Part shown: piece after piece, positions 43,541-45,405 of the stretch
How the letters are laid out: each line of letters opens with the position of its first letter
How positions within the stretch are numbered: the first letter of the stretch is position 1
Assembly (NCBI RefSeq): GCF_040675875.1
Contig: NZ_JBEGII010000001.1
Span: 1,240,001-1,304,000, forward strand
DNA length: 64,000 nt
Direction: 5' to 3'
From: Microbacterium sp. LWO12-1.2
Lineage (GTDB): Bacteria > Actinomycetota > Actinomycetes > Actinomycetales > Microbacteriaceae
Notes under the pieces: model-generated
What the model was told of the DNA's origin: nothing
The model's input: the letters and a program-made list of their open reading frames with translations, nothing else
The model's database searches: none
Position numbers and translations under genes: made by a program

Positions 43541-43596
43541 GGTTGACCTCCTGATCAGGCGACGGGATCGTCGCGAAGACGGTGCTGCAGGCACGC

Positions 43597-43651
43597 GACC
43601 CTTCGACAAGCTCAGGGGCCCAGGTGGCCCTTCGACAGGCTCAGGGACCCA
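43597..43651. repeat. two tandem copies of a CCCTTCGACAxGCTCAGGG repeat
   Basis: Copy 1 (43597-43622) reads ..CCCTTCGACAAGCTCAGGGG.. and copy 2 (43626-43651) reads ..CCCTTCGACAGGCTCAGGGA.., about 29 nt apart. The CCCT...AGGG ends are self-complementary. Short elements of this form are common dispersed repeats in high-GC genomes. It lies between gmk and rpoZ, so it may affect their shared transcript. Confidence 0.7.
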
Positions 43652-43661
43652 GCTCAGCGGG

Positions 43662-44570
43662 TCAGCGTGCAGAGCTTGAAGACAATTCTACGACCTCAGC
43701 GGCGGCATCGGCGACGTTCTCGTTCACGATGAGGTGATCGAACTCGTTCTGGGCGGCCAATTCGACCTTCGCGGTGCGCAGTCGTCTGGCGCGTTCCTCG
43801 GCGCCCTCAGTGCCTCGACCGACCAGTCGCTGCACGAGTTCGTCCCAGCTCGGCGGCAGCAGGAAGATCAGCGTGGCGGCTGGTTCTGCTGCTCGCACCT
43901 GGCGCGCACCCTGCAGATCGATCTCGAGCAGGACCGTCTTCCCCTCGGCCAACGCGGCATCGATCGGTGGGCGCGGGGTGCCGTAGCGTGAACGGTTGTG
44001 CACGACGGCGTACTCGAGCAGTTCGCCGTGCTCGATGAGCCGGTCGAACTCGGCGTCGTCGACGAAGTAATAGTGCACGCCGTCGATCTCGCCCGGGCGT
44101 GGCGGGCGCGTGGTTGCCGAGACCGACAGGTGGATCTCGGGGTGGTTCTCACGGATGTGGGCCGCCACTGTTCCCTTACCCACGGCGGTGGGGCCGGCGA
44201 GCACGAGCAACCGGCTGCGCGCTCCGCGCGGGGACAACGGCGGGAAGCGTCCGTCGAGCCAGTGCTCGAGCACGACCCGTTGCCGGGCGCCGAGCCCTCC
44301 GAGCCGTTTCACCGGCGAGATCTGGAGGTCTTCCAGCACACGGTCGCGCTTGCCCGCACCGATCGCTGGCAGGGCGAGCAGGAAGTCGGTGATCCGCATG
44401 GATCCCTCGACCGAGTCCGGATCTTCGATCGCTCGATGCAGCACGGCCTGAGGCGTGATGACCCGCATGGTCAGGTCGCGCTTGAGCGAGGCACGGGCGC
44501 GTCGACGCTCGACGGCCTTGCGCGCGGCAGCGGCCCGATCGACCTCGGGGATGACTCGTGTCTCAGCCAC
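43662..44570 (-). CDS. gmk: mIHF-guanylate kinase fusion
   Basis: A 302-aa two-domain protein. Residues 1-105 match actinobacterial integration host factor (mIHF): [53 protein letters not shown] (shown in parts), a DNA-binding helix-two-turn-helix. Residues 120-302 are guanylate kinase (GMP to GDP): P-loop [56 protein letters not shown]. In mycobacteria mihF and gmk are separate adjacent genes. No stop or ribosome site separates them here. GTG 44570 starts the mIHF N-terminus, overlapping pyrF by 8 nt. Confidence 0.93.
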
Positions 44571-45405
44571 GTGCGGCCTCCTGGTATTGCGCGACGCGCG
44601 CTTCGATCGCTGCGGCGATGCCTTCCGGTCCGGCACCGAGGATGCTGCGGCTCTCGCTGGCGATGACGCACGCCGCCATAGCGCCGAAACGGTCAGCGAG
44701 GTCGGCCGGCTCCGCGCCCTGCGCTCCGAAGCCGGGGGCGAGGATGGGCGCGTTCGGAGCGAACGCGTCGATACCGGCAGCCGACCAGTCGACGGTGGCG
44801 CCGATGACCACACCGATGCTCCCCCACTCCCCTGAGGCGACCGCTGCCTCGTTCCTGGTCGACACCTCGGCGAGAACTCCCGCCGCGACCGAGCGATCAT
44901 CGCCACGCGAACGTTGCAGCGGTTCGGCTTCGGGATTGCTGGTGGCGGCGAGCACGAAGACGCCCTTGCCGTGCTGTGCGGCGAGAGAGAAGGCCCCGTC
45001 GAGCGCGCCGACGCCGAGGTACGGACTGACCGTCAGCGCATCGGCTTCGAGTGCGGAGCCCGGAGTGAGCCAGGCGGCGGCGTACGCATCCATCGTCGAG
45101 CCGATGTCACCGCGCTTGGCGTCGGCGATCACGATCAGACCCGCGGCACGCGCGGCCGCGAGCACCTCTTCGAGCGCGACGAACCCGGCGGATCCGAAGC
45201 GCTCGAAGAACGACACCTGCGGCTTGACGATCGCCACTCGGCCGACCGCCGCGTCCACCGTGCGCAGACCGAACTCCCGCACACCGGCGGCGTCCTGCGT
45301 CAGACCCCAGGCGTCGAGAAGCGCCGCATGCGGGTCGATCCCGACGCAGAGCGGCCCGGACGAGCGGAGTGCCGTCCGGACGCGCTCACCGAAACCTGCG
45401 CTCAC
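44563..45405 (-). CDS. pyrF: orotidine 5'-phosphate decarboxylase
   Basis: A 280-aa long-form (type 2) OMP decarboxylase, last step of UMP synthesis. [16 protein letters not shown] at the N-terminus; catalytic Lys region [20 protein letters not shown] at about residues 88-107; [12 protein letters not shown] and [11 protein letters not shown] for phosphate binding. The GTG start overlaps the carB stop by 4 nt. Confidence 0.95.

Follow-up and report, generated by a model that had tools for sequence, protein, structure and literature searches.

The fused gene and its locus

A 64,000-nucleotide stretch of DNA from Microbacterium sp. LWO12-1.2 (hereafter the window) carries, on its minus strand, a single gene encoding an actinobacterial integration host factor (mIHF) domain joined to a guanylate kinase (Gmk). 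A preliminary description of this DNA, which left the strand unstated, had reported an mIHF-Gmk fusion in one continuous 302-codon frame without an internal stop. The frame was confirmed; its stop ends at 43662 and none occurs within it. The features, in window positions, were as follows.

43662..44570, minus strand: fused mIHF-Gmk gene, 302 codons with the stop included, GTG start at 44570
44241..44543, minus strand: mIHF-type (S13-like H2TH) domain, approximately residues 10-110, placed by NF041260, 6tob (sequence) and 6bek (model)
44289..44309, minus strand: loop KRLGGLG, residues 88-94, corresponding to RRxRGLG in separate mIHF
44217..44240, minus strand: linker, residues 111-118, of low model confidence
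43677..44216, minus strand: guanylate kinase domain, approximately residues 119-298, placed by Pfam, TIGR03263 and the structural model
44172..44195, minus strand: P-loop GPTAVGKG, residues 126-133
44577..44582, minus strand: AGGAGG, a Shine-Dalgarno (SD)-like motif read from the sequence, 6 nt before the GTG
44563..44570, minus strand: 8 nt shared by the start of the fused gene and the end of pyrF
44563..45405, minus strand: pyrF (orotidine-5'-phosphate decarboxylase), upstream neighbour, TIGR02127 at 274.2 bits
43283..43543, minus strand: rpoZ (RNA polymerase omega), downstream neighbour, TIGR00690 at 72 bits

Both domain assignments of the preliminary description proved right. The N-terminal ~100 residues scored above the cut-off of the NCBIfam actino_IHF model (NF041260; residues 10-101, 64.7 bits), only just exceeding the required 60 bits, and residues 120-296 matched guanyl_kin (TIGR03263) at 213.1 bits against a cut-off of 160.45. 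The Pfam domains H2TH_5 (43-101) and Guanylate_kin (119-295) both exceeded their cut-offs. By sequence, the solved mIHF 6TOB was aligned to residues 8-101 (E 1.6e-12) and the SCO1480 structure 4ITQ to residues 7-102 (E 1.4e-8). When NF041260 was applied to a 26-genome subset, nine exceeded the cut-off and those fused genomes that are most reduced fell somewhat below it; membership of the N-terminal half in the mIHF family rests on the family score together with the fold. The P-loop was found at residues 126-133, as described, and its positions G126, P127, V130, G131 and K132 were invariant in 65 sequences.

An AlphaFold2 model of the fused protein (pLDDT 92.4, pTM 0.67) contained both folds. 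The mIHF half kept the S13-like H2TH fold, 6bek being matched over model residues 14-110, and the kinase half had the P-loop and the fold of solved Gmk, with 52% identity when the model was aligned to 1S4Q. Mean pLDDT fell to 63 across residues 111-120, and the two folds are predicted to be connected by a flexible linker. Across 24 Microbacterium genes, the ratio of nonsynonymous to synonymous substitution rates (dN/dS) was 0.19 in the Gmk part, 0.24 in the mIHF part and 0.47 in the linker; this last value indicates that the linker is translated.

In the genome of the window, which is 4.1 Mb long and has a completeness score of 100%, the fused gene was the sole actino_IHF match and the sole Gmk match, and profile searches found no second mIHF or Gmk at E 0.001. 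GMP kinase activity of the fused protein would be expected, because this is the only Gmk match in a genome scored as complete.

Distribution of the fusion and of genomes without mIHF

A total of 199 genomes of the same family were searched and 195 matched, all of which were seen. The fusion was present in 182 of the 195, including one genome with a longer linker (G153) and one in which a contig end breaks the gene and the junction is present on one piece (G147). One further genome was frameshifted (G009), and 12 contained Gmk only. The family was identified as Microbacteriaceae from loci identical to named Humibacter, Agrococcus, Pseudolysinimonas, Homoserinibacter and Curtobacterium records. 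Both domains lay in one open reading frame in 64 of 80 named loci, all titled Microbacteriaceae except L151 ('Actinomycetota bacterium'). The remaining 16 were Pseudolysinimonas and 15 loci from outside the family, from Kocuria, Rothia, Brevibacterium, Kribbella, Nocardioides, Arthrobacter and Cellulomonas. The G009 locus was identical to that of Pseudolysinimonas kribbensis (L053 / L158); its halves are in different frames, with the shift inside the conserved loop, and the genome scores 86% complete, so that an assembly error is possible.

Candidate internal stops in five genomes (G140, G192, G042, G097 and G273) were rejected, the frame being open across both domains and the stop terminal. 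For G088, the reported stop was judged non-internal from the open frame. A 0.93-Mb genome (G015) retained the fusion.

The order was surveyed with 149 genomes, 139 of them outside the family (18 families), and rows were obtained for 137 of these 139. None of the 137 spanned both domains without a stop; 13 rows covered both domains with an intervening stop. In a phylum survey of 296 genomes (6 in the family), no non-family row among the 150 listed was stop-free across both domains. The fusion is a Microbacteriaceae trait, present in most members of the family, and the recurrence of the same two domains in one frame at this frequency is more than chance. The earlier suggestion that it might be a neutral oddity of one lineage did not hold, since fusion is the usual state of the family, the mIHF half is changed and secondary losses probably followed.

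The 12 Gmk-only genomes came from five genera (g11, g14, g66, g71 and g82). The gene order pyrF, gmk, rpoZ was kept in them, carB was identified upstream in 11 of the 12, and the interval between pyrF and gmk contained no match to mIHF. Relocation of mIHF was considered and rejected, the mIHF profile giving only 12-20 bit matches genome-wide in these 12; such matches would be ribosomal protein S13. Nine of the 12 genomes were at least 99% complete, and the absence is less sure in G081, G144 and G065 (78-84%). One g71 locus (L050) was less clean, with the pyrF match in two pieces and ~300 nt between pyrF and gmk. A relative in or near g71 (P0125) had a long Ala/Pro/Thr-rich N-terminal extension.

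A tree was made from pyrF, Gmk and rpoZ using 120 rows, of which 12 were Gmk-only. Rows L008, L017, L028, L029 and L060 were omitted as near-duplicates, and L053 did not enter the count of fused and lost cases. Two changes suffice on this tree, one in g11, g14 and g82, which grouped with fused genera, and one in g66 and g71, which sit near the base of the family, where the tree gives no resolution. Because the outgroup row L113, on a long branch of 1.66, was placed inside the family, no single branch set the outgroup apart; L055 was also long-branched. From these placements the mIHF half was probably lost secondarily, and probably twice.

The only named relatives of g11 among the matches listed were Rhodoluna (76% identity); at least 120 proteins were listed, all kinase-only. 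Of 13 genomes of g11, g14, g66 and g71 (10 of the 13 tested as mIHF-less), 12 gave a match to HU and 2 a match to Lsr2; the corresponding numbers for 13 fused controls were 13 and 4. The single genome without an HU match is 83% complete. Among the loci L041-L052, sampled members of g11 (near Rhodoluna) and of g14 gave no match to mIHF or Lsr2, so that HU was the only nucleoid protein found there out of the three looked for. Three 201-residue kinase-only proteins (P0126, P0133 and P0136), one of them on a 3.76-Mb contig, were also recorded; their nearest match was the mIHF-less G065 (85%).

Changes accompanying the fusion and their interpretation

The fused start overlapped the pyrF stop in 76 of 85 genes, most commonly by 4 nt (30 genes) or 8 nt (29). 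Separate loci had a pyrF-mihF gap of 41-329 nt (median 131.5; measurable in 24 of 35) and a small mihF-gmk gap (median 17.5 nt, 32 measured), often with the genes overlapping. The branch between fused and separate groups measured 0.81 for mIHF, where it was the longest internal branch and a clean split, against 0.14 for Gmk in the same 120 rows; one row (L113) was misplaced in the single-gene Gmk tree. Mean identity between the groups was 35.5% for mIHF and 64.2% for Gmk, and within groups 52-58% and 69-71%, respectively.

The loop read RR-x-RG in 31 of 35 separate proteins and KR-x-GG in 72 of 85 fused proteins, including that of the window; we take the loop arginines to be DNA contacts in mIHF. 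Lysine 18 was present in 35/35 separate and 4/85 fused proteins, the window gene being among the four. R23, R26, K30, G71 and Q97 were constant in all 120 proteins (85 fused, 35 separate), and the median net charge of the mIHF part was +8 against +7. Judged from these comparisons, the DNA-binding half changed sharply when the fusion arose.

We consider it probable, with some reservation, that one ancient fusion produced an enzyme carrying a DNA-binding module at enzyme dosage, as opposed to an abundant architectural nucleoid protein, and that two lineages subsequently discarded the module. A single origin in the ancestor of Microbacteriaceae would be most likely. The mihF stop would have been lost in an older gene order pyrF-mihF-gmk-rpoZ, in which the pair was already adjacent, and the pyrF-mihF gap, a possible site of a separate promoter, would also have been lost, with the consequence that the start codon of the fused gene now lies within the end of pyrF. 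On the stem branch the mIHF part changed fast (RRxRG to KRxGG), and it has been conserved in its new form. The product would be one two-domain protein in which a short flexible linker connects an mIHF-type DNA-binding domain to a complete guanylate kinase. Its two halves would act largely independently, with DNA binding kept in changed form and the nucleoid role reduced or altered.

The mIHF of Mycobacterium tuberculosis is reported to be essential and among its most abundant proteins (PMC6155035, PMC3724605). The fused mIHF, now part of an enzyme and with a start that overlaps pyrF, is probably less abundant. This dosage argument draws on the pyrF overlap and the one-to-one stoichiometry, the codon adaptation result given below being negative.

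The same changes bear on two other explanations. It is unlikely, though worth weighing, that the mIHF half has lost DNA binding and persists as a leftover or stabilising N-terminal extension of Gmk. The fast stem change (0.81 vs 0.14), the replaced loop arginines, the loss of K18 from 81 of 85 fused proteins (K18 is retained in the window gene) and the absence of the domain from five genera would all fit such an extension. However, purifying selection acts on the mIHF domain (dN/dS of 0.24), its fold, basic invariants and net positive charge are all kept, and it is retained in the 0.93-Mb genome. A chance joining, after which both halves function exactly as when separate, is improbable: such a join would have been easy between genes already adjacent and often overlapping, and the flexible linker and pTM of 0.67 suggest independent domains, but a silent join would not need the coinciding gap loss, loop change and long mIHF stem, and one-to-one enzyme stoichiometry is hard to square with an unchanged abundant nucleoid protein.

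Whether the gene yields one product or two was assessed from its internal start codons. The preliminary description had seen no obvious internal start. This stood insofar as none with a good SD motif is conserved, and needed amendment in that GTG100, TTG112, TTG121 and GTG123 occur in frame in the window gene. Some start codon was present at residues 100-122 in 49 of 85 fused genes, with an SD score of 4 or more in 13, at scattered positions; ATG occurred there in only three of the 85. GTG123 was common (67/85), but the SD score reached 4 in only 5 of these 67, and a protein begun at this codon would have the first kinase strand truncated. With no well-preceded position conserved across the 85 genes, an internal start was rejected as the source of a free kinase. 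The additional production of free kinase, whether from an internal start or through cleavage of the linker, is accordingly given a very low probability: the available start codons and the database gene calls beginning near V123 speak for it, and the shifting position of the internal start and the constraint on the linker as protein speak against it. In those calls (P0138 and P0177 at V123; P0197 at V123 or one residue before) the mIHF half is dropped, and some annotations thereby hide the fusion.

Several points weigh against a single fusion to an enzyme-dosed DNA-binding module. Codon adaptation, measured against EF-Tu in 15 fused and 15 separate genomes, gave no sign of lower expression of the mIHF half (IHF minus Gmk medians -0.015/0.026, Mann-Whitney p 0.51). 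The promoter of the fused gene may lie inside pyrF, and the overlap and gap measurements use script-chosen start codons. The long mIHF stem could reflect relaxed constraint with loss of DNA binding. Because the base of the family is not resolved in the tree, loss of mIHF in genera g66 and g71 might predate the fusion, and the weak internal start codons of the window gene make internal starts possible.

There is also a slim chance that the fused protein is a nucleotide-responsive chromosome protein, in which GMP, GTP or (p)ppGpp bound by the kinase alters the grip of mIHF on DNA and KRxGG is a retuned DNA contact. If so, guanine supply would directly set nucleoid structure or transcription in Microbacteriaceae. 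Coupling between guanine supply and chromosome binding, proposed in the preliminary description, is possible and would not be obligatory, because some lineages keep Gmk without mIHF.

Two observations stand apart from the fusion. Between the fused gene and rpoZ, at window positions 43592-43649, there are two tandem copies of a 29-nt repeat (CCCTTCGACARGCTCAGG), the core of which has 56 genomic copies, 27 in forward and 29 in reverse orientation (0 for the reversed control), frequently arranged in tandem; it is a dispersed REP-like element. A metagenomic guanylate kinase of 301 residues (P0123) has its kinase domain partly duplicated in tandem.

Comparison with known systems

The architecture is already present in databases under the name guanylate kinase. 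At least 120 database proteins listed carry both Pfam domains, and wherever a source name is given it is guanylate kinase. Among the titles and abstract openings listed from the open-licence literature, none described the fusion. Proteins named simply guanylate kinase thus carry a nucleoid-protein domain. In most of the family mIHF is tied one-to-one to an enzyme, with the upstream gap lost and the loop changed, and it has been dropped in five sampled genera. The natural series of separate, fused and absent mIHF offers a direct route to ask why some actinobacteria depend on the protein for viability while others can do without it.

The contrast with mycobacteria drawn in the preliminary description was correct, in that PMC6155035 places a separate mihF upstream of gmk and rpoZ in M. 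tuberculosis. The mIHF of Mycobacterium (Rv1388) and the sIHF of Streptomyces (SCO1480) are free proteins of ~105 residues, whereas here the domain forms the N-terminus of Gmk in a 302-codon frame. Relative to these proteins (NF041260, PF22525; 6TOB, 4ITQ, 6BEK), the fused form has KRxGG for RRxRG and overlaps pyrF. It has the same full domain and P-loop as bacterial Gmk (TIGR03263, PF00625; 1S4Q of M. tuberculosis) and differs in its extra N-terminal nucleoid-protein domain. Eukaryotic MAGUKs, such as PSD-95 and MPP, act as scaffolds and have SH3 and PDZ partners. They are alike in holding a guanylate-kinase-like domain within a multidomain protein; unlike in MAGUKs, the kinase here is the cell's only Gmk and its partner is a DNA-binding domain.
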